A stretch of 64,000 nucleotides of DNA from Candidatus Gastranaerophilales bacterium (GTDB taxonomy: Bacteria > Cyanobacteriota > Vampirovibrionia > Gastranaerophilales > Gastranaerophilaceae), in the NCBI GenBank assembly GCA_947626225.1, contig CANQRH010000002.1, positions 186,001 through 250,000 on the forward strand, in the 5' to 3' direction. The notes beneath the pieces were generated by a model that ran no database searches, was not told the origin of the DNA, and saw nothing but the letters and a program-made list of their open reading frames with translations. The position numbers and the translations under genes were made by a program. The number at the start of each line of letters is the position of its first letter. Within the stretch, counting starts at the first letter, position 1. Shown here piece after piece: positions 4,908-64,000 of this stretch.

Positions 4908-5834
4908 ATGAATTATACTAAAGAAGATTACCTCAAAATGTATGATAAGCCTTTATCAGAGCTTATAGAAATATCAAGTAAAATTACTGCGGAAAATTTT
5001 GATAATACGGTTGAAGCCTGCAGTATTTTGAGCGCCAAAACCGGTGCTTGTCAGGAAAATTGCAAATACTGTTCGCAAAGCAGCCACAACCATGCAGAAA
5101 TCACATGTCATCCGCTTCTTGATGTCGAAACGGTTAAACAAGCCGCATTAAGCGCTAAAGAAAACGGTGCAACCCGTTTTTGTATAGTTACATCAGGCAG
5201 AGTACCGACTGACAAAGATTTTGAAAAAATTCTTGAAATGATTAAAGCCGTAGCATCAATAGACGGGCTTCACTGTTGTGCATCATTAGGTTTGCTTTCG
5301 GAAGAACAGGTTAAAAAAATAAAAGAAGCCGGAGTTGAAAGATATAATCACAATATCAATACTTCCGAAAATTATCACAAATTTATCTGTTCTACGCACA
5401 ATTTTTCAGACCGAGTAAACACCGTAAAAATGATTCAGAAATACGGAATGGAAGCATGCTGCGGAGTTATAATCGGCATGGGAGAGACAAGAGAAGACAG
5501 GATTGACATGGCTTTATCATTAAAAGAACTCAATCCTAAAACGGTTCCGATAAACTTTTTAAACCCGATTAAAGGAACTCCGCTTGAAGGTTATGAAGAT
5601 AAAATTGATGAAGAAGAAATACTCAAAACAATTTGTATTTTCAGAATAATATTACCAAAAGCACTTTTAAGATATGCCGGCGGAAGAACTACGCGTTTAA
5701 GCGAATATAACCAGAAATTAGGCATAAAAGCGGGAATAAATTCACTTCTTGTAGGAAATTATCTCACAACAACCGGTTCAAATTCCGAAGATGACAAGCA
5801 AATGCTGAAAGAATTAGATCTTGTAATGGGATAA
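4908..5834 (+). CDS. bioB: Biotin synthase
   Basis: A radical-SAM enzyme inserting sulfur into dethiobiotin. The CxxxCxxC cluster motif is at residues 48-55 (ACQENCKYC), and later conserved stretches are present (HNINTSENYH, ACCGVIIGMGE, INFLNPIKGTPLEG, and YAGGRTTRL with the arginine binding the [2Fe-2S] cluster). I chose ATG 4908 because GGGAG at 4894-4898 is correctly spaced from it. An in-frame ATG at 4899 abuts that site. No other biotin gene is in the window. A TATAAT-like element lies near 4882-4887. Confidence 0.96.
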   Translation: MNYTKEDYLKMYDKPLSELIEISSKITAENFDNTVEACSILSAKTGACQENCKYCSQSSHNHAEITCHPLLDVETVKQAALSAKENGATRFCIVTSGRVPTDKDFEKILEMIKAVASIDGLHCCASLGLLSEEQVKKIKEAGVERYNHNINTSENYHKFICSTHNFSDRVNTVKMIQKYGMEACCGVIIGMGETREDRIDMALSLKELNPKTVPINFLNPIKGTPLEGYEDKIDEEEILKTICIFRIILPKALLRYAGGRTTRLSEYNQKLGIKAGINSLLVGNYLTTTGSNSEDDKQMLKELDLVMG

Positions 5835-30378: not shown

Positions 30379-33174
30379 TTAATCTTTAGGAATTTCTTTA
30401 GTAAAATCTTTTATATCAAAACCTAAATCATCAAGATATTCACGCAGTGTACCGCCGACAATATTACCGTCACTGTCTTTTATAACCCAGCTTTGATCAC
30501 CGTCAATGGCATTTCTTATCATTTGGGTATGATTATTGCCCGAATAATAACTGTCAACGGCACGATATACAGCCTTGGTAAAATCATCACTCATAGCTTT
30601 ACGAAATATTTCGGTTTCTTCTTCATTCATAAAATCAGGTAAATTTAAAGATTTTTTAATTTTATCAACCGTACGTTCGGTAAGGAATCCGTTAACGCCG
30701 TCTTTTACGGAATCCACATGCCCGCCGACTCTTGTACAAATGACGGGTGTACCTTTATACAGAGATTCCCATTTAGCACCGTCAGGTTCAAAATAACTCG
30801 GATATAATGTGAAATCAGAGCCGCCTTGTAAAATGTTATTCGGTACATATCCGTCCATGTGTATTATATGCTCACCTTTATTTCCCATTTTTTCCTTTAA
30901 AGCAATAATATATTTTTTTATTCTATCGCCTTCTTCATCCTTTCCGCCAACTATAAATACAGGTTTTTTCTTACCGGGGTATTTGGTTTCCCAATCGGTC
31001 AAAACATTATTCATCACATCTGCGGCAATATCGATACCTTTTTGTTTTACAAACCTTGCGCCCATATTAAACACAATCGTATCATCCAAATCTTCGGGTT
31101 TTACATCTTTAACAGAGGTTGTATCAATATTTAAAATGTTGAATAAGTCACGGTTTTTAGTTTTTTTATATTCAACCATGGAATTCATATAATCAATAAG
31201 TGCCGCTTTATTTTTTTTACGGGCAAGAATAATATGCTCCATAGAATCTTCATGAGTATTTGGAGTAAATTTTCTAAGTGTGAAAATGCCTTTTCTCTTC
31301 AAATCATCAAGAGTATTGTTTATTGCTTTCGAACCTATTGCTTTGAGTTTTTCTATTTTAACCTTAAATTCTTTTGAATCAATTTTTTCAGACAAGATTT
31401 TATTCATTTGAATTTTTTCATCATCCGATAAACCTTGTATATGAGTTAAAGTATCTTTAAATATGGAGAATTTATCACCGTTTAAAGCGGTATTAAAACC
31501 ATTTATACTATTAAGGCTTATTTCATTGACACTTCTGTCCCAACCGTTGCTTCTGCCTTTTAATGTACCGTTATTATATCTTTGGTTCAGAATGTGTGTC
31601 ATTCCGAGACCTCTTGATATATCATGTGAAATTTCATAAGCATAATTAGGAGATACGGGACGCATTATAGTGGAATAACATGCAGCCATATTGGCCAAAT
31701 TTACATTACCGTCAATAGTTAAAGCATTTGCAATCCCTTTTCCGAAACCGGTTTTTGCATACTTGTATATATCATAAGCATATTCACCGAAAAGGGAATT
31801 CAATATATCACCTTTGTGCGCCCAGTCAATTCCCTGATGTTCCAAGTTATGATTGATATTAACTAAATTCATTGTTTTGAACATTTCTGCAGCACTGTTA
31901 TTTAACGTACCAAATGCAGCTTCAACGGGTGCTTTTAAGCGCATCAAGGCAGCTAACGCAGCAGCATGCCAGTCATTTAATATCATAGCCGACGGCGCTT
32001 TTATGTCCGTAATTTTATCAAACAATTTATACTCTGTCATGGAGTTTGGATCAACCAGAAGCTTATTAAATTCATAAGCAAGTTTCGGAAGCAAAGCATA
32101 ACGCTCATTTTCCGATACAACATAAGAATTGTCATAAAGTCCGGATGAAGTAAAATAGTCATCGCATTTAAACATCAATCTCTTATGACCTTGTCTGGGA
32201 TCCCAACCGGTAAATACATCAACATTAAGCAGTTTTGGATGTCCGTCTCTGAAAACTTCGGTTTTAAAGCTGGCAACCAAATCTACAGGCATAGAAAACA
32301 GTTTTGAGGGCTCATTTATATTATAAAGATAAGTATACTTATTGTTTTCAAAAACAAGTTTTGATACTCCGGGAATAAGGCTCATAGGACGAACCACATA
32401 ATTATCAATACCAAGTTTTGTCATGTTTTTAGCCATTTGCACGGGAACTTCTCCGAGTCCTCCGGATTTCTCGGGGATAGATTCGGCTGTAACAGACCAA
32501 ATTGTCGCATTTTTATTCAACATTTTCTTTGCAACGGACTTATTGCCGTTTATAAAATCAGAGGCAACATTTTTTAGGTATGTTTTAACTTCCGTGGGAA
32601 GTTCTTTCGGCTTACCGTCATTGGATAAATTCCTCAAAAGCGGGATGCCGTCAACTACTTCTACGCATCTGCTTATATAATCGGCACTGCTTCTTGCAGC
32701 GGCAATTGAATTTTGTCTGTCAGTCAAGCTGTTAAGCCATTTATCATACCATTCCGATTTCTCGTCAATAAGCGATTGATTTTTTTGGGAATTTTTTAAA
32801 GCTTCTCCTGCATTAGTTATGGCATCATTAACTTTTTTACCTAACTTTGACACATCATCTTTTATCGCGTTAACAGCAGTATTGAAAGTATCGGATATAT
32901 TCATATCAGCTTTTGCTAAATCATCAATTTTATCCGAAAAAGTATTTAATCGCTGATTAAAAGAAGCTTGTAAAGGTTTTCCCATACCGCGGGAGAGCGC
33001 AACGGCAGCAATACCGATGGCGGCAAGAGATGCTGCCGAACTAACGTATACAGCGGTTTTTAATGTTCTATCTTTTTTGTCGGGAAGCGGCTCGGGAGTA
33101 ATATTATTGTTACTCATAAGCCATTTAAAATCATTATTATTAGAGCTAAAATAAACCTTTTGAACCGGACTCAT
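30379..33174 (-). CDS. Membrane-anchored GT5 glycosyltransferase (glycogen/starch synthase-like)
   Basis: A 931-residue protein almost twice the length of glycogen synthase. Residues 40-65 form a hydrophobic segment (VYVSSAASLAAIGIAAVALS), and 70-190 are charged and probably coiled. From about 225 a GT5 fold follows: SVTAESIPEKSGGLGEVPVQ (the KxGGL sugar-nucleotide loop), LNDWHAAALAALMRL, SPNYAYEI, NMGARFVKQKGIDI and YFEPDGAKWESLYKGTPVIC with two Glu at the active site. Long insertions lie between these. It probably transfers glucose into an alpha-glucan at a membrane, but the donor and acceptor are unknown. The N-terminus MSPVQKVYFSSNNNDF is not part of the enzyme family. Confidence 0.8.
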   Translation of the reverse strand: MSPVQKVYFSSNNNDFKWLMSNNNITPEPLPDKKDRTLKTAVYVSSAASLAAIGIAAVALSRGMGKPLQASFNQRLNTFSDKIDDLAKADMNISDTFNTAVNAIKDDVSKLGKKVNDAITNAGEALKNSQKNQSLIDEKSEWYDKWLNSLTDRQNSIAAARSSADYISRCVEVVDGIPLLRNLSNDGKPKELPTEVKTYLKNVASDFINGNKSVAKKMLNKNATIWSVTAESIPEKSGGLGEVPVQMAKNMTKLGIDNYVVRPMSLIPGVSKLVFENNKYTYLYNINEPSKLFSMPVDLVASFKTEVFRDGHPKLLNVDVFTGWDPRQGHKRLMFKCDDYFTSSGLYDNSYVVSENERYALLPKLAYEFNKLLVDPNSMTEYKLFDKITDIKAPSAMILNDWHAAALAALMRLKAPVEAAFGTLNNSAAEMFKTMNLVNINHNLEHQGIDWAHKGDILNSLFGEYAYDIYKYAKTGFGKGIANALTIDGNVNLANMAACYSTIMRPVSPNYAYEISHDISRGLGMTHILNQRYNNGTLKGRSNGWDRSVNEISLNSINGFNTALNGDKFSIFKDTLTHIQGLSDDEKIQMNKILSEKIDSKEFKVKIEKLKAIGSKAINNTLDDLKRKGIFTLRKFTPNTHEDSMEHIILARKKNKAALIDYMNSMVEYKKTKNRDLFNILNIDTTSVKDVKPEDLDDTIVFNMGARFVKQKGIDIAADVMNNVLTDWETKYPGKKKPVFIVGGKDEEGDRIKKYIIALKEKMGNKGEHIIHMDGYVPNNILQGGSDFTLYPSYFEPDGAKWESLYKGTPVICTRVGGHVDSVKDGVNGFLTERTVDKIKKSLNLPDFMNEEETEIFRKAMSDDFTKAVYRAVDSYYSGNNHTQMIRNAIDGDQSWVIKDSDGNIVGGTLREYLDDLGFDIKDFTKEIPKD

Positions 33175-43353: not shown

Positions 43354-44760
43354 ATGAAAATACAAAAGGTGGAACAAAGTTATAATACTGTGCAAAATGC
43401 CGCACATGCAACAAGTTTTAAGGGCGTAAATTTAGGCAGTCAAATTACCGAATTGCTTCCCAACAAAAAAGCTATCAGTATGTTGAGCAAATTTAAGAAA
43501 TTTAACGGAGAAGGCGGAGGTATATTGATTAATTCAATCGGTACCGGTGCAATTGCTCCGTTATTTATTGCGTTCAACCCGCTTGTAAAAGCACCTAAAG
43601 ATGCGACTCCCGAACAGAAAAAAGACGTAGAAAATACGAAAAAATATACGGCAATGCGCCAGCCGATTTCCGCAGTACTTGCAATATTAATCCAGTTCGG
43701 CCTGCAAAAACCTATGGATATCGCTCTTGATTCTCTGTTTAACAATCCTAATGTAGCTAAACATTTATGGCTGTCATTAGATCAGAGTGCATTGAACAAT
43801 GACGGATATGTTGAAAGAAAAATTGCAAAAGAAATGAATAAAGAAAAATCTCATTTCAAAGACAAAAAAGCATATAAAGAAGAACTTCAAAAACGAGTTG
43901 CAGCATACAAGGAAGAACAATTAAATAAGGTAATTAAAAACCTTAAAGACAATAAACAAATCAAAATAGGTTCTCGTATAGTAGAAAATAAAGAACTTGC
44001 ACGAGTAATAAACAAACAAATTGACAGTTATCTTGAAGATGCAAGAAGCTTCCTTCAGGATGAAAAAGGTATTCTTTTCTATAAAGACAGAGCCGAAATT
44101 CTTATGAATAATGAAGAAGAATTAAAGAGAATTCTGACTAATCTTCCGTCAGATGAAAAAGCTCTTGACAGTTATTTGAAAAAACAGCTTGCCAATACAA
44201 AAAACACTGATGTAAAAACAATTCTTCAGGAAATAATTGATTACCCGAGTAAAGAATTGAGAGAAAGCAGATGCGCAAGGACTCTCCAAAGATGTGATAC
44301 AATTCGAAAAGCTTGCGGCGGAACATACAATTCGGAAAAATATGTTCAGAGCATGCTTGATGATAATTCCTATTTGAGAAAATTCATATTAAAATTGGAA
44401 GACTGCAAAGTTAAAAATCTTGACGCTGCTGACTTGAACACCGTAAAAAAACAAATTAAAAATGTAATTGAAGCATGTTCATACAGCTCTGATAATGTAA
44501 GAGCAGACAGAATATTTAAAAATGCATTTACATTCCTGACCGACAAAAATCAATTATCAAACAAAATACATAAAGATATCGCAAAATGCTACAAAACAGT
44601 AATAGGCAACAGGTACAAAGGCTTTAACCAGCTTGCAAAAATTGTAATCGGAGCTCTTATTACGGTTCCTGTCACATGTACGGCATTAAACTGGGTATAT
44701 CCGAGATTTATGGATATATTCTTCCCGAAACTCTCCGGTAAAAAAGGAGGTGACAAATAA
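43354..44760 (+). CDS. Uncharacterised helical protein with N-terminal TSFKG tag
   Basis: A 468-residue protein of no family known to me. The first 30 residues are polar and contain ATSFKGVNLG. A Gly-rich hydrophobic segment is at about 55-75 (ILINSIGTGAIAPLFIAF), another weakly hydrophobic one at about 103-118. Residues 140-410 are charged and mainly helical. A final membrane helix is at about 430-455 (AKIVIGALITVPVTCTALNW). The stop overlaps the next start (TAATG), so the two products are made together and probably interact. It is preceded by a structured leader. Confidence 0.72.
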   Translation: MKIQKVEQSYNTVQNAAHATSFKGVNLGSQITELLPNKKAISMLSKFKKFNGEGGGILINSIGTGAIAPLFIAFNPLVKAPKDATPEQKKDVENTKKYTAMRQPISAVLAILIQFGLQKPMDIALDSLFNNPNVAKHLWLSLDQSALNNDGYVERKIAKEMNKEKSHFKDKKAYKEELQKRVAAYKEEQLNKVIKNLKDNKQIKIGSRIVENKELARVINKQIDSYLEDARSFLQDEKGILFYKDRAEILMNNEEELKRILTNLPSDEKALDSYLKKQLANTKNTDVKTILQEIIDYPSKELRESRCARTLQRCDTIRKACGGTYNSEKYVQSMLDDNSYLRKFILKLEDCKVKNLDAADLNTVKKQIKNVIEACSYSSDNVRADRIFKNAFTFLTDKNQLSNKIHKDIAKCYKTVIGNRYKGFNQLAKIVIGALITVPVTCTALNWVYPRFMDIFFPKLSGKKGGDK

Positions 44761-45455
44761 TGACAATAACCTCTGTAGGAGCAAAAGCCCTTGGCGCAGT
44801 AACAAATTTTAAACCGCTTCAGAAAGCTTGTAATTATTTTGAAAAAGAACCGGCCAGAGCTTTAGCAATGACAACAATTGCATCTTGTTTAACTAAAGAT
44901 GCCATCGGATGTTATATGTACGTAGAGCAAAGTCTCCATAACGAAAAAATACCGGAAGATAAGAGAAAATTCGTTGCGGCTCTTGACCTTACAAACGGTA
45001 TATTAAATATATTCACCCAGATTATCTGCTTCTTTGCAATGAGAAAAATTAACCAGTCATTATTCCCGAAATTATTCAAAAAATCATTTGATAAAAAAGG
45101 AAACGTATTAAAAACAATCACAACTCAAATCCGTATGAATCAGAAAAAAGCGGGACAAAAGGTTGACAGAAAACTTACAATCAAAAAAGAATATGACAAA
45201 ATAAGAAAAACATGTTACGACTGCTTCTCATTTGTTACGGAACTTGCAGCAGCGACTATATTTGCAAAACGTGTCATCGTACCGTTCTTAGCAACACCGC
45301 TTGCCGAAAAAGTTAAAAACAAAATGAATAAAAAAGAGGCAGAAGAAACAGAAATTAAACAGGAAACAAAACCTCAGGAAAAACCTCTAAACGAGATAAA
45401 GCCTCAAGAAACCGAAGCAACGCAAACGAAACTTCTTGATAAATACAAAAAATAA
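44760..45455 (+). CDS. Uncharacterised membrane protein coupled to the TSFKG gene
   Basis: A 231-residue protein whose ATG shares a base with the upstream stop and has GGAGGTGA just before it inside the upstream gene. Hydrophobic segments lie at about 38-55 (ALAMTTIASCLTKDAIGCYM), 78-100 (LTNGILNIFTQIICFFAM) and 160-180 (FVTELAAATIFAKRVIVPFL). The C-terminus is a Lys/Glu/Pro/Gln tail with repeated KPQE. No family recognised. Forms a two-gene unit ended by the terminator at 45454. Confidence 0.72.
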   Translation: MTITSVGAKALGAVTNFKPLQKACNYFEKEPARALAMTTIASCLTKDAIGCYMYVEQSLHNEKIPEDKRKFVAALDLTNGILNIFTQIICFFAMRKINQSLFPKLFKKSFDKKGNVLKTITTQIRMNQKKAGQKVDRKLTIKKEYDKIRKTCYDCFSFVTELAAATIFAKRVIVPFLATPLAEKVKNKMNKKEAEETEIKQETKPQEKPLNEIKPQETEATQTKLLDKYKK

Positions 45456-58942: not shown

Positions 58943-61228
58943 CTAATCAACATCAACAGGTTCACGCATAATTTTTTCTATTGCTTCTCTCGCGGTAAAA
59001 GCAAGTGCTTCCGGGACATTTTCAATTGTTGTAAACTGCCTTAAAACATCAACTACACGTTTAAAAGAGCGAACAATATCTCCTTCACCCATATCGACCT
59101 GCTCGGTAATTGTTTCCCATTCGGCACCTTCAACCCAAAGCTCAATAAGTGAACTGAAATACGGGTTTATATACATTGGAGAATCAACATTGTGACGGCT
59201 TTGAACTTTTTCAATTTTTCGTCTTATATTGCGGATAAGATTTAATGTTTTGCGAACTGTTTGCGACATCGGAAGATAGGGAATATCAATTCGCAAATCT
59301 TCGGTAGTAACGGCACAAATTACTGCTGCCAGCTGAGAGGGCGTAAGATTATCAAGCACGTTAGAAAATATAATTTCAGCAAGAAAAAGCTCGTTTTCAG
59401 AGCGGATTTGAGAAGTTGTAATCCCGCAATCAGTCGGATAATCATTGTGCAAATAACCGAAATCAATTAAAACAGCCCTGTGCGATAAAAATTTATTCCA
59501 GAAAATATCTTTTTGACGCTCCATTTCTTTTTTCAGCTTTGCCTGTCTGATATCAATTCTTGCAAGCACTTCGAGATTTTTGGCATGCTTTTTATATCTG
59601 TTGCAGTTATCACAAGGATAAGAATGAAGCTGTTCAAGCAAGGCCTTGTTTGAATCCTTGAATGCCAAAACTTCGGCAGAAAGCGGACGTTTTTTACTCT
59701 GTTCCTGTTTACATATTTTTTTATAAGTCTGCCTGTTTTGGACATACAAATGACGAAGCTTATCATATTTCAAAAATTCTTCATCCGAAATTTTATGAAC
59801 ACAGGCAAAAGCTCGTTCTTCCCGTTCGCGCTCATTTATTTCATACTGCTTCAAAAGCGGTTGAAGCCGTGTACCCGATGAGAAATATCCGAAACTTTTT
59901 AATATGAGTTCTTTTGCTTCATCAAGCGAAAAGCGCTGTAAGAGATTTAAAACCATTGAATACGAAGGAGAAAATCTGCTTTCTAAGGGATTTGCATCAC
60001 TCAACACGAGTTCCGCGACTTCTTCTGGCGACTGAAATTGGGTGCCGACAATAGTAACATATCCGATTTCGTCCATACCGCGCCTGCCGGCTCTGCCGGA
60101 CATCTGTAAAAATTCACTTGCAGTAAGCATTCTGTGACCGCTGTCGGTGCGTTTGCTTGCAGAGCTGATTACAGTAGAACGTGCAGGCATATTTATTCCG
60201 GCGGCGAGAGTTTCAGTCGCAAAAACAACTTTTATCAAACCTTTTTGAAAAAGTTTTTCAACAAGATTTTTCCATGCCGGAAGAAGTCCTGCATGGTGCG
60301 ATGCAACTCCGCATAATAAATATTCGATATGTTTATTGTTATAAAGATGCGAATTTTCCGCTATATATTCGTCTATAAATTGCTGTATCCGTGCCCTTTC
60401 ACCTTTTGTAATCAAATCAAGCGATGCACATTTTTCCATCTGTTCATCACATTTTTTACGGGAAAAGGTAAAATAAATCGCCGGCAGCATGTCATTTGCC
60501 TGCAGGTTTCTGATAACATCTTTCACATAAGATTTTTTATTTTGGAATTTTCTGCCGTACAAACGTTTTTCGGGTTTTATTTTATTGTTAAGCTGACCGC
60601 TCGGAGTGAGCAAGGGTAATAATTTTGCGGGCTGAGAGCTGTCAAAGTAATAAAACCTCAAAGGTACGGGACGAAAGTCAGTATCAACGAGTTCCGTTTT
60701 TGAATGTACGGTGTTTATCCAATCGGTAAGCTCTCTTGCATTGGCAACCGTAGCCGAAAGAGCAATAATTTGAACGTTAGTCGGGCAGTAAATAATACTT
60801 TCTTCCCAGACGGTTCCGCGCTGTTCATCATTCATGTAGTGAACTTCATCAAGTACAACGTATTTAACGTCTTTCATATTGTCCGTAACAGAGCCGAAAT
60901 TTGTCCCGTAAAGCATATTTCTGAAAACTTCGGTTGTCATAACAACAATTTGCCCGTTTCGGTTTATTGAGGTGTCGCCCGTCAAAAGTCCGACTTTATC
61001 CTGACCGTATTTTTCACCGAAATCATAATACTTTTGATTAGATAAAGCTTTCAACGGTGTAGTGTAAAATATTCTCTTTCCTTCTTCCAGAGCCCTGTGT
61101 ATGGCATGCTGAGCGATAACCGTTTTGCCCGCACCTGTCGGTGCGCATACGACAACGCTTTTGCCGTTGTTTATATGTTCGCAGGCATCTTTTTGAAAAT
61201 CATCCAGCTCAAACGGAAATGTATACAT
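58943..61228 (-). CDS. DEVH-box RNA helicase, Ski2/Mtr4-like
   Basis: A 761-residue superfamily 2 helicase. Walker A APTGAGKT is at 29-36 and the DEVH box at 127-130 (VVLDEVHYMND). Other motifs are TTPLKALSNQK, ALSATVANARELTDWI, FATETLAAGINMPARS and QMSGRAGRRGMDEIGY. A Cys-containing region (CDNCNRYKKH) lies near 550, and a DSHCT-type C-terminal domain ends with WVEGAEWETITEQVDMGEGD and IVRSFKRVVDVLRQ. Eukaryotic relatives feed RNA to the exosome; cyanobacteria and plastids encode similar proteins. A role in RNA turnover or rRNA processing is likely. Confidence 0.92.
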   Translation of the reverse strand: MYTFPFELDDFQKDACEHINNGKSVVVCAPTGAGKTVIAQHAIHRALEEGKRIFYTTPLKALSNQKYYDFGEKYGQDKVGLLTGDTSINRNGQIVVMTTEVFRNMLYGTNFGSVTDNMKDVKYVVLDEVHYMNDEQRGTVWEESIIYCPTNVQIIALSATVANARELTDWINTVHSKTELVDTDFRPVPLRFYYFDSSQPAKLLPLLTPSGQLNNKIKPEKRLYGRKFQNKKSYVKDVIRNLQANDMLPAIYFTFSRKKCDEQMEKCASLDLITKGERARIQQFIDEYIAENSHLYNNKHIEYLLCGVASHHAGLLPAWKNLVEKLFQKGLIKVVFATETLAAGINMPARSTVISSASKRTDSGHRMLTASEFLQMSGRAGRRGMDEIGYVTIVGTQFQSPEEVAELVLSDANPLESRFSPSYSMVLNLLQRFSLDEAKELILKSFGYFSSGTRLQPLLKQYEINEREREERAFACVHKISDEEFLKYDKLRHLYVQNRQTYKKICKQEQSKKRPLSAEVLAFKDSNKALLEQLHSYPCDNCNRYKKHAKNLEVLARIDIRQAKLKKEMERQKDIFWNKFLSHRAVLIDFGYLHNDYPTDCGITTSQIRSENELFLAEIIFSNVLDNLTPSQLAAVICAVTTEDLRIDIPYLPMSQTVRKTLNLIRNIRRKIEKVQSRHNVDSPMYINPYFSSLIELWVEGAEWETITEQVDMGEGDIVRSFKRVVDVLRQFTTIENVPEALAFTAREAIEKIMREPVDVD

Positions 61229-61265
61229 AACTTTATTATGACTTAAAAATCAAGTCATGTAAAAT

Positions 61266-61286
61266 TTTGTTACACAATGTAGCAAA
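61266..61286 (+). promoter_or_regulatory. Shared palindrome, site 1
   Basis: TTTGTTAC-ACAAT-GTAGCAAA: 8-base arms that are complementary except for one position, 75 bp before the start at 61362. The surrounding TCATGTAAAATTTTG and AAAAAATATTT also match the other sites. TTGTTA inside it could be a -35 element, so it may be an operator. Confidence 0.6.
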
Positions 61287-61361: not shown

Positions 61362-61922
61362 ATGAAAATAACAATGAATTGTAATTGTCCTCAAAAACCA
61401 TATACATCCCCATCTTTTGGGAGATTTGTATTTTATCAGGGGATTCCGGAACTTATTGCCAGAGGTAACTATTTCAAAGGAGATTGCCCAAATATGGGTT
61501 TAACCCCAAGTCTTTATGAACAAAAAATGAAAACTTTAATGGATATAATTGAAAAGGAAAAATCAAATCCTGTTGTGACCGAAATTCGATCCAATCCCGG
61601 AGGATATACGCTTTCAGCTGTTTCTTTTATATCCAGAGGAGACAGTTCCGACATTAAACGTTTTACTTTTGATTCTGCAAAAGAAGATATATGTGATTTT
61701 CTCAGAAATGTATCAGAAGAAATTCGTTATATGGTCAAATATGCTGACGATTCAAACCGCAGCACATCATTCGGCTTTTTAAAGTTGAAAGATATTTATA
61801 CGCAAAAATTAAAGGACGTTATTAACAGCCCGTCAACTAAAAATGAACCCGATAGTTTTCAAGAAAAATGCTATAAAAAATTATATCAAATTCTGAATGA
61901 TAACCCTGATTTTTTCAAATAA
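61362..61922 (+). CDS. NCNCP-tagged small protein, long form 1
   Basis: A 186-residue protein. It starts MKITMNCNCPQKPYTSPSFG, the tag shared with its neighbours. The remainder is a compact alpha/beta-looking domain: LYEQKMKTLMDIIEKEKSNP, a strand-like GGYTLSAVSFISRGDSS, ICDFLRNVSEEIRYMVKYAD and a C-terminal helix QEKCYKKLYQIL. The next protein (61964) is a diverged paralogue with the same order of elements. No signal peptide, no membrane segment and no family I know. AAGGAG precedes the start, and palindrome site 1 lies upstream. Confidence 0.75.
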   Translation: MKITMNCNCPQKPYTSPSFGRFVFYQGIPELIARGNYFKGDCPNMGLTPSLYEQKMKTLMDIIEKEKSNPVVTEIRSNPGGYTLSAVSFISRGDSSDIKRFTFDSAKEDICDFLRNVSEEIRYMVKYADDSNRSTSFGFLKLKDIYTQKLKDVINSPSTKNEPDSFQEKCYKKLYQILNDNPDFFK

Positions 61923-61963
61923 AAATGTGTAAAATAACTCATAACAATTAAAGGAAAAAAATT

Positions 61964-62509
61964 ATGAAAGTAACAATGAATTGTAATTGCCCGTCCAAAC
62001 CTTGTGCATCCCCGACATTTGGGGCATTCCTTATACAACCTGAACTGATGAAAGATATTGCAAACGGTCATTTTTTCAAATATCCTTACGATCGTTTTTC
62101 GCCGAGAATTTATGAAAAGAAAATGTGGACTTTATTCCATATAATCAATTCAGACAAATTAAATCCGGTTATAAACCGTATAAGCTACGATAAAAACAAG
62201 TCCATACAAGCCGAGTGCTTTTTTATTCGTTCAAACGGTACAGATAATGTAAAATACATTTTTGACAGTGATAAATTTGAGATATGTGAATTTTTCAAAT
62301 TTATATCGGATGAAACACGCTATACGCACAGATTCGGTGACGACCCAACCCGCACTTTGGCGTCAGCTTTTGATGATTTGAAAAAAATCTATTTGAAAAA
62401 ATTTGATGAAGTAACCAACAGATTATCAACTGCCGAGCAAATAGAAAACTTTAAGCAGACATGCCATAAAAGGTTACAACACCTTATTATAGGTAACTAC
62501 GATGAATGA
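61964..62509 (+). CDS. NCNCP-tagged small protein, long form 2
   Basis: A 181-residue paralogue of the preceding protein, beginning MKVTMNCNCPSKPCASPTFG. Shared elements include YEKKMWTLFHIINSDKLNPV, VKYIFDSDKFEICEFFKFIS, DETRY and the C-terminal FKQTCHKRLQHL. Overall identity is low outside the first 20 residues, judged by eye at roughly one third. It follows after 41 bp with its own AAAGGA site and no palindrome, so it is probably transcribed with the first. A terminator follows. Confidence 0.75.
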   Translation: MKVTMNCNCPSKPCASPTFGAFLIQPELMKDIANGHFFKYPYDRFSPRIYEKKMWTLFHIINSDKLNPVINRISYDKNKSIQAECFFIRSNGTDNVKYIFDSDKFEICEFFKFISDETRYTHRFGDDPTRTLASAFDDLKKIYLKKFDEVTNRLSTAEQIENFKQTCHKRLQHLIIGNYDE

Positions 62510-62541
62510 CAGTCGTGTATTAATTCTAAAATCAGTACAAT

Positions 62542-62569
62542 AAAAAAGAGCCTTTAAAAGGCTCTTTTT
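62542..62569 (+). terminator. Terminator after the two long-form genes
   Basis: AAAAAAGAGCCTTT paired with AAAGGCTCTTTTT, a long stem with T run, separating the long-form genes from the short-form genes. Confidence 0.88.
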
Positions 62570-62697
62570 ATATCTTGGCAAATCCCGTGTATTTTCTTAA
62601 AACTTCAGAGATTATAATTGTTTGGCTTGTGCGATGTTTTCAACTATCGCCGCAAAAAAGTTCTGCCATACTTAACCGAAATAAAGACTTGTAAAAT

Positions 62698-62718
62698 TTT
62701 GTTACACTATGTAGCAAA
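62698..62718 (+). promoter_or_regulatory. Shared palindrome, site 2
   Basis: TTTGTTAC-ACTAT-GTAGCAAA, 43 bp before the start at 62762. Arms identical to sites 1 and 3; only the 5-base spacer differs. Confidence 0.6.
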
Positions 62719-62761
62719 GAAGATATTTAGGGGTTTTAATAAATGAGAAAGGAAAAACAAT

Positions 62762-63148
62762 ATGAAGACAAACTTAAATTGCAACTGCCCGAAACCGCAA
62801 TTCGGTATGGCAATACACTACTCAAACAATAGTGTTCAACGTGTAATCAAGTCCAGAATCAAATCTTTAAACGATATTGATAAATTAAACGACATATTAA
62901 AAAAGCAAAAAGAAAACTTGAAAGTTGATATAAGTCTTTTTGCCAACGAAAAAACAGGTAAACTGAGCGCTGATGTTTATACGACAAACTACACCATGAG
63001 CAAATTTTATAAAAGCTATTCGGAAAATTTCTTCAACAGATTATTTAACAACAGTCCCGTGAAGTTTATTGAAAAAATGGCAAATATCGCAGATAAACAA
63101 GAAAGTAAGATAAAAAACGAAGAAATCTTAAATAAGATAATTTTCTAA
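62762..63148 (+). CDS. NCNCP-tagged small protein, short form 1
   Basis: A 128-residue protein starting MKTNLNCNCPKPQFGMAIH. The body is predicted mostly helical with a strand pair: KSLNDIDKLNDILKKQKENL, then VDISLFANEKTGKLSADVY, then YSENFFNRLF and a C-terminal helix FIEKMANIADKQESKI. About two thirds of positions match the next gene. The tag resembles the long forms but the body does not align. No signal peptide or membrane segment. GAAAGGA precedes the start. Confidence 0.75.
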   Translation: MKTNLNCNCPKPQFGMAIHYSNNSVQRVIKSRIKSLNDIDKLNDILKKQKENLKVDISLFANEKTGKLSADVYTTNYTMSKFYKSYSENFFNRLFNNSPVKFIEKMANIADKQESKIKNEEILNKIIF

Positions 63149-63245
63149 AAACCTCGGGGATAACGATTGCCGTCAGCTTGCTGATAGTTTTAAACTATCG
63201 TCGCAAAGGTTTTGCAAACCTGAACGAAATCAAATCATGTAAAAT

Positions 63246-63266
63246 TTTGTTACACTAAGTAGCAAA
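63246..63266 (+). promoter_or_regulatory. Shared palindrome, site 3
   Basis: TTTGTTAC-ACTAA-GTAGCAAA, 43 bp before the start at 63310, in the same context as site 2. Confidence 0.6.
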
Positions 63267-63309
63267 AAAGATATTTAGAGGTTTTAATAAATGAGAAAGG
63301 GAAACCAAT

Positions 63310-63696
63310 ATGAAGACAAATTTAAATTGTAACTGCCCGAAACCGCAATTCGGTATGGCAATACACGTAGGCGATAATAATGTTAAAAGTGTACTCAAAT
63401 CCAGAGTAAAATCTTTAAAGGATGTTGAAAAAATAAACGATATATTTCAAAAGCAAAAAGGAAACTCTAAAGTTGACATAAGTCTTTTTGCAAACGACAA
63501 AACAGGTAAACTGAGCGCTAATGTTTATGCAAAAGAATACTCTGACACCGGTTTTTATAAAAACTATTCGGAAAATTTTTTCAGCATATTATTTAGAAGT
63601 CCCGTTAAGTTTATTGAAAAATTAGCAAAAGTTGCAGATAAAGAAGAAGCAAAAATCTTAAAAAAAGAAGAAATTGTAAATAAGCTGAATTTCTAA
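63310..63696 (+). CDS. NCNCP-tagged small protein, short form 2
   Basis: A 128-residue paralogue of the gene at 62762, identical over the first 19 residues (MKTNLNCNCPKPQFGMAIH) and in VDISLFAN and SPVKFIEK blocks. Substitutions cluster in the surface-like helices, and two small gaps compensate in length, so both copies look intact and under constraint. Start site AAAGGG. It is followed after 24 bp by a further related gene. Confidence 0.75.
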   Translation: MKTNLNCNCPKPQFGMAIHVGDNNVKSVLKSRVKSLKDVEKINDIFQKQKGNSKVDISLFANDKTGKLSANVYAKEYSDTGFYKNYSENFFSILFRSPVKFIEKLAKVADKEEAKILKKEEIVNKLNF

Positions 63697-63720
63697 TAAG
63701 CAAATACGAGGTAAATTTTC

Positions 63721-64000
63721 ATGAACGTAAATTTTAACGGCAATTATGCTAACCCTAAAACAACACCGTCATTCGGTGCTATTAATATATCTGAAACTGC
63801 AAGACGTGTGCTTAAAAAATCATTATCAACCGAACAGATAAATGATTTGCAAAATATTATTAAAAAATGCAATGAAAATAAATTCGTTGATATTTATATA
63901 TCATCCGAGACAAATGAGAAATCATTACATGCAGCCATAGGGCCGGCATTAGATATCGGTGACCATATTCGCAGAAGTTTATCAAGCATTCCTAAATCCT
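63721..64000 (+). CDS. Related small protein, 3' end outside window
   Basis: Starts at ATG 63721 after GAGGTAAA and stays open to the window edge (93 codons visible). Begins MNVNFNGNYANPKTTPSFGA, where the cysteines of the NCNCP tag are replaced by Gly and Tyr but the Pro-x-Phe-Gly part is kept. The body resembles the short forms: RRVLKKSLSTEQINDLQNII, then FVDIYISSETNEKSLHAAIG. It has no palindrome of its own and probably shares the transcript of the preceding gene. Confidence 0.7.
   Translation, partial: MNVNFNGNYANPKTTPSFGAINISETARRVLKKSLSTEQINDLQNIIKKCNENKFVDIYISSETNEKSLHAAIGPALDIGDHIRRSLSSIPKS

Follow-up and report, generated by a model that had tools for sequence, protein, structure and literature searches.

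The SPI-2 effectors of Salmonella possess common N-terminal translocation segments of about 140 residues (the WEK[IM]xxFF group), one segment being found on different protein bodies. More broadly, the N-termini of type III effectors are enriched in Ser, Thr and Pro and depleted in Leu and acidic residues (PMC2669295); these signals are a matter of composition and have no common motif. Early flagellar substrates (Salmonella FlgD and others) carry a hydrophobic N-terminal signal in residues 3–7 together with a gate recognition motif (GRM) of the form FxxxPhi, and in Salmonella rod and hook subunits at least 19, usually 30, residues lie between the two (PMC8983047). Partial flagellar gene sets have already been noted in genomes of the Gastranaerophilales (PMC5877343), the gut cyanobacterial lineage to which the DNA studied here belongs.

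The window, i.e. the whole stretch of 64,000 nucleotides that was analysed, derives from a 95%-complete genome of 1.59 Mb in 12 contigs and ends within a row of five genes (61362–64140), each opening with a polar tag that terminates in Phe-Gly (Table 1). The initial annotation had described five adjacent tagged genes, four with NCNCP and the fifth free of Cys, and the reading frames were confirmed by an ORF check of the window. Each gene is preceded by a Shine-Dalgarno-like sequence, and the last continues past the window edge to a whole length of 139 aa (L005:2722–3141). A degenerate DNA pattern for NCNCP produced four matches in the entire 1.59-Mb genome, all of them in the cluster, and none with a reversed control. 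The cluster is flanked by a Ski2-like helicase gene on one side and serS on the other, and its proteins returned no significant family from Pfam and NCBIfam.

A 22-bp dyad, TTTTGTTACACAATGTAGCAAA (form TTTTGTTACAC-N-ATGTAGCAAA), was located 5' of genes 1, 3 and 4, the first genes of three transcription units in the cluster. The window contains three copies where 0.02 are expected, and no copy was detected elsewhere among the 498 kb sampled of this genome. The dyad is also positioned 5' of cluster homologues in two related genomes (G138 and G014; L027, L028). It probably serves the cluster as an operator or promoter element, and a recent duplication of the leader could account in part for its repetition.

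Table 1. Tagged genes, dyad copies and flanking gene in the window (window coordinates)
Feature	Position	Strand	Length	Tag or sequence	Tag position	Remarks
Ski2-like helicase gene	58943..61228	−				flanks the cluster
Tagged gene 1	61362..61922	+	186 aa	MKITMNCNCPQKPYTSPSFG	61362–61421	
Tagged gene 2	61964..62509	+	181 aa	MKVTMNCNCPSKPCASPTFG	61964–62023	39% identity with gene 1
Tagged gene 3	62762..63148	+	128 aa	MKTNLNCNCPKPQFG	62762–62806	belongs to family-wide group, FG invariant
Tagged gene 4	63310..63696	+	128 aa	MKTNLNCNCPKPQFG	63310–63354	69% identity with gene 3
Tagged gene 5	63721..64000 in window, to 64140 beyond	+		MNVNFNGNYANPKTTPSFG	63721–63777	tag without Cys
Dyad copy	61265..61286	.				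5' of genes 1-2
Dyad copy	62697..62718	.				5' of gene 3
Dyad copy	63245..63266	.				5' of genes 4-5; 1 mismatch
Fifth profile-passing protein of genome sample	43354..44760	+	468 aa	MKIQKVEQSYNTVQNAAHATSFKG		unrelated body; FKG tag

Homologues of the 128-aa protein were present in 32 of 146 family genomes, and its alignment model matched 72 of 240 genomes of the class, the matches listed being all within the family; the alignment is invariant only at the tag's F and G. Significant scores for the 181/186-aa pair were confined to the window's genome. Structure prediction, as recommended by the initial annotation, gave a compact body for the 128-aa protein (AlphaFold, mean pLDDT 82.6, element order E-H-H-E-E-E-H) with a disordered tag (residues 1–7 at pLDDT<50); the low-confidence model of the 181-aa protein (mean pLDDT 58) has the same element order and two extra C-terminal helices. 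Profile comparison of the 181/186-aa pair with the 128-aa family gave 89% when the tag was included and, on the bodies alone, a score of 25.6 (probability 25%) versus a maximum of 18.4 in 100 column shuffles. Because the body-only score exceeds the shuffles and the element orders of the models match, the 181/186-aa and 128/139-aa bodies are most likely remote relatives sharing one alpha/beta fold, and the cluster a single diverged family. Where the initial annotation had left a choice between unrelated and strongly diverged bodies, strong divergence was upheld; unrelated bodies inside the cluster were dropped in favour of remote homology, and are to be found elsewhere.

Structural neighbours of the 128-aa body were weak (Foldseek best E 5e-3, TM about 0.4), and a fold search of viral models gave none with E under 0.001. 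Several HPF/YfiA/PSRP1 chains were among the best structural matches (VIA Z 4–6.2; values below 8 may reflect a widespread arrangement). The modelled body has the strand/helix order of the HPF/YfiA ribosome-hibernation fold, but the match is weak (Z at most 6.2, TM about 0.4) and the 128-aa protein has no match to the HPF Pfam domain; this weak likeness in topology is not taken as function.

The tag was followed to other bodies through partial matches over the first 20–50 alignment positions and then by means of tag patterns. After tags had been stripped, bodies from the family genomes formed 54 BLAST clusters, 44 of which have a strict tag start and are mutually without BLAST similarity. Domains behind the tag comprise GNAT, HNH, 5'-nucleotidase with metallophosphatase, CheR, AAA, zeta toxin and alpha-amylase, two or three tagged proteins (L107, L171, L201) are kinase-like by eye, and linker length differs widely. 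The effector, toxin or antigen likeness raised by the initial annotation finds some echo in the GNAT, zeta toxin, HNH and kinase-like domains, but it is not established, and CheR, AAA and alpha-amylase do not force it.

A loose regular expression (F-x-[GA] near N-termini) revealed no clear enrichment in the window's genome (6.0% versus 3–9% in internal windows), and a stricter profile with internal-methionine and outgroup controls was therefore built, its training set being free of sequences from the tested genomes. Genes were taken as the longest non-overlapping ORFs, with no trained gene finder, and about 31% of the window's genome was sampled. Of 1323 genes from five family genomes, this held-out profile recognised a tagged N-terminus in 23 (13/371 in G043, 5/499 in the window's genome, 0/175 in G006), compared with none among the 427 genes of two control genomes, including an AT-rich one (GC 0.32), and none at 5261 internal methionines overall, or at the 2123 in the window's genome. 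The fifth profile-passing protein in the sample of the window's genome (Table 1) has no significant Pfam family. Matches to the FGM pattern were in frame and open in 71/99 cases within the family versus 4/18 outside it (p = 1e-4), while a looser F-K DNA pattern separated family from outgroups weakly (52/146 versus 15/72, p = 0.03). In public genomes, a degenerate tag pattern matched Candidatus Scatousia, Candidatus Gastranaerophilales and several MAGs; a few further matches were unrelated or frame-shifted on translation.

These searches bear on whether the tag is simply how the members of a single ordinary domain family begin, its occurrence elsewhere being coincidental. The five cluster genes do make one such diverged family, by score and by element order, but the 44 body clusters, the variable linker length and the empty control genomes render this explanation quite improbable. 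The check proposed in the initial annotation, to look for further bodies bearing the tag, thus succeeded and contradicted a single-family origin, and the annotation's view of a conserved N-terminus on different bodies as a targeting or docking device, not a catalytic one, was supported by the same 44 clusters.

Two adjoining genes at 43354–45455 encode proteins with hydrophobic stretches, the first of which has a good FKG tag, and RP-containing membrane proteins resembling this pair were seen in related genomes (L053, L055). Separately, a 931-aa glycogen/starch-synthase-like protein (30379–33174) has a polar N-terminus and, after it, a hydrophobic stretch.

In general form, the tag reads M-[KQ]-[IV]-polar-[NSTQ]-F-[GK]-[GAM], the polar linker being rich in N/Q/S/T/P and nearly free of acidic residues. 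I or V occupied residue 3 in 61 of 63 FGM tags, I/V/L were also frequent at residue 6, and the Phe was mostly found at residues 8–22, with a few cases at 26–42. Linkers differed from the proteome in D+E (1.7% versus 12.5%), in N/Q/S/T/P (61% versus 24.5%; S 14.6 versus 6.2%, T 9.7 versus 5.3%, P 7.6 versus 3.2%) and in L (3.6 versus 8.9%), AT-rich DNA accounting for part of the N/Q richness. Hydrophobic residues alternate after the Phe (F+4 45% and F+6 43% versus F+5 23% and F+7 14%), the F+4 value, taken over the 44 clusters, being a mild enrichment over the roughly 30% expected from proteome composition.

Codons 2–6 of the tag are A-rich, as would suit a signal that lies in the nucleotide sequence at the translation starts of AT-rich genes, not in the peptide. 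However, the AT-rich control genome yielded no profile matches, the distance of the motif from the start varies, and so do the third bases of the codons for Phe and Gly (TTT 40 and TTC 23; GGT 26, GGA 22, GGG 9 and GGC 6 in the 63 FGM tags), which leaves this explanation scarcely credible. Since those third bases vary, selection on the tag, as judged from codon usage, is at the peptide level.

Roles in metal binding, lipidation or oxidation, which the initial annotation had considered for the paired Cys, fared less well. The pair is missing in most homologues, with Asn, Ser, Thr or Gln in its place outside near relatives, and tag linkers contain 8 Cys in 587 residues. With NCNCP confined to near relatives and the pair gone in other genera, these roles were ruled out as the general function of the tag. 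The accompanying statement that there is no signal peptide stood: neither a Sec/Tat signal nor a lipobox was apparent in the five cluster tags, which have no hydrophobic core and whose Cys is not conserved in homologues.

Set against the described systems, the tag resembles type III effector signals in being N-terminal, disordered, rich in Ser/Thr/Pro and other polar residues but short of Leu and acidic ones, and attached to unrelated bodies, in genomes that also encode an export gate; it differs from them in having a motif, I/V at residue 3 plus F-[GK]-[GAM], across genera, and in that its export is putative. Like early flagellar substrates it has small non-polar residues at positions 3–7, a polar disordered linker and a Phe after which position +4 is often hydrophobic, the enrichment there being mild, but its linker is mostly about 5–20 residues, below the 19–30 of Salmonella, and the rod proteins of the window's genome have no F-[GK] tag. 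As in the SPI-2 effectors, one N-terminal segment stands on different bodies, although the tag measures about 10–25 residues and is unrelated to theirs in sequence. The tag probably acts as a signal for either sorting or docking.

Genes for the apparatus that might read it are widespread. FlhA was identified in 96 of 97 family genomes (83/83 complete ones), in canonical form in roughly 40 and in divergent form in nearly all; as it is almost universal, its co-occurrence with the tag cannot discriminate. Flagellin was present in 41/97 family genomes and was not found in the g1 genomes sampled, including that of the window. The latter genome contains FliE, FliF, FliH, FlhA, FliN and two FlgE/F/G-type rod proteins according to Pfam, and FliO/P/Q/R and FlgB/C by sequence.

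Its export apparatus and rod genes are situated at L198:6010–11930, L023:4323–7850 and L009:875–3121, the FlhA being of the divergent class. Many family genomes also encode proteins of about 490 aa that match only the C-terminal half of FHIPEP (FlhA) and have a different N-terminal part (L199:7497–8960; L200:12567–14027) and may represent a soluble FlhA-C-like receptor. No more than about 7 kb and 1.3 kb, respectively, separate a kinase-like gene (L201:753–1754) and a small tagged gene (L201:15215–15649) of G063 from the fliPQR-flhB-flhA operon.

UshA-type 5'-nucleotidases were found in all 60 of 60 family genomes. In all 30 family loci that were read (L222–L251) a Sec-like signal is missing and the protein opens with a short polar extension, several of these proteins carrying an F-G/K/S motif, whereas a hydrophobic Sec-like signal is present at 15 of 24 loci from outside the family. 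As these enzymes are usually exported, their lack of a Sec-like signal and the presence of the motif in some favour another export route.

Such a route might also be type I, type VI or another contractile system in place of the flagellar-type apparatus, and the evidence for a sorting signal fits this equally. Known type I signals are C-terminal, however, type VI cargo usually rides on VgrG, PAAR or Hcp parts, and VirB4-type T4SS was found in 0/97 family genomes, so that a Sec-independent route of this sort appears improbable.

Export through a flagellar-type type III apparatus is the best single reading because of the polar disordered linker, I/V at residue 3, the ubiquity of FlhA, the lack of VirB4 and the UshA-type enzymes without a Sec signal; we advance it tentatively, at somewhat less than even chances, with secretion deduced from sequence. 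The tag would be a short disordered N-terminal sorting signal used throughout the family, read by the flagellar-type export gate (FlhA-FliPQR), and tagged proteins would leave the cell Sec-independently via a filament-less basal body, with 61362–64140 then encoding a set of small alpha/beta cargos that is diversifying and controlled by the dyad. More doubtful is the broader possibility that the basal body, whose filament is absent in many genomes, became a general exporter with a transferable tag, for perhaps tens of unrelated cargos per genome, e.g. enzymes, kinase-like proteins and small orphan proteins. Against export by this apparatus speak the linker, shorter than Salmonella rod/hook subunits require, the mild enrichment of FxxxPhi, the untagged rod proteins, and those tagged proteins that have a cytosolic look (CheR, AAA) or contain hydrophobic stretches.

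The latter proteins, namely CheR, AAA ATPases and alpha-amylase-type enzymes, and those with hydrophobic stretches (window 43354, L177, L216:4645), would be expected if the disordered N-terminus bound a cytoplasmic or membrane scaffold and recruited enzymes and small adaptors with no export at all. The alternating hydrophobics after the Phe, like a strand able to add to a partner, and the FG invariant in the 128-aa family are consistent with such intracellular docking, but the UshA-type enzymes point to another export route, and we regard docking, the main rival, as somewhat less likely than flagellar-type export.

Export by the flagellar-type apparatus, if true, would give the partial flagellar gene sets of these genomes (PMC5877343) a use, and with a type III-type signal whose motif can be read from sequence, it would become possible to test how the export gate recognises it. 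We found in open papers no published description of the tag and no relevant work on type III secretion in Melainabacteria, and the tag looks like a so far undescribed protein address label. Little is known of how Gastranaerophilales, which are widespread gut bacteria, deal with their host and neighbours; a sorting tag shared by the family, if true, would allow their exported or co-localised proteins to be listed straight from sequence.
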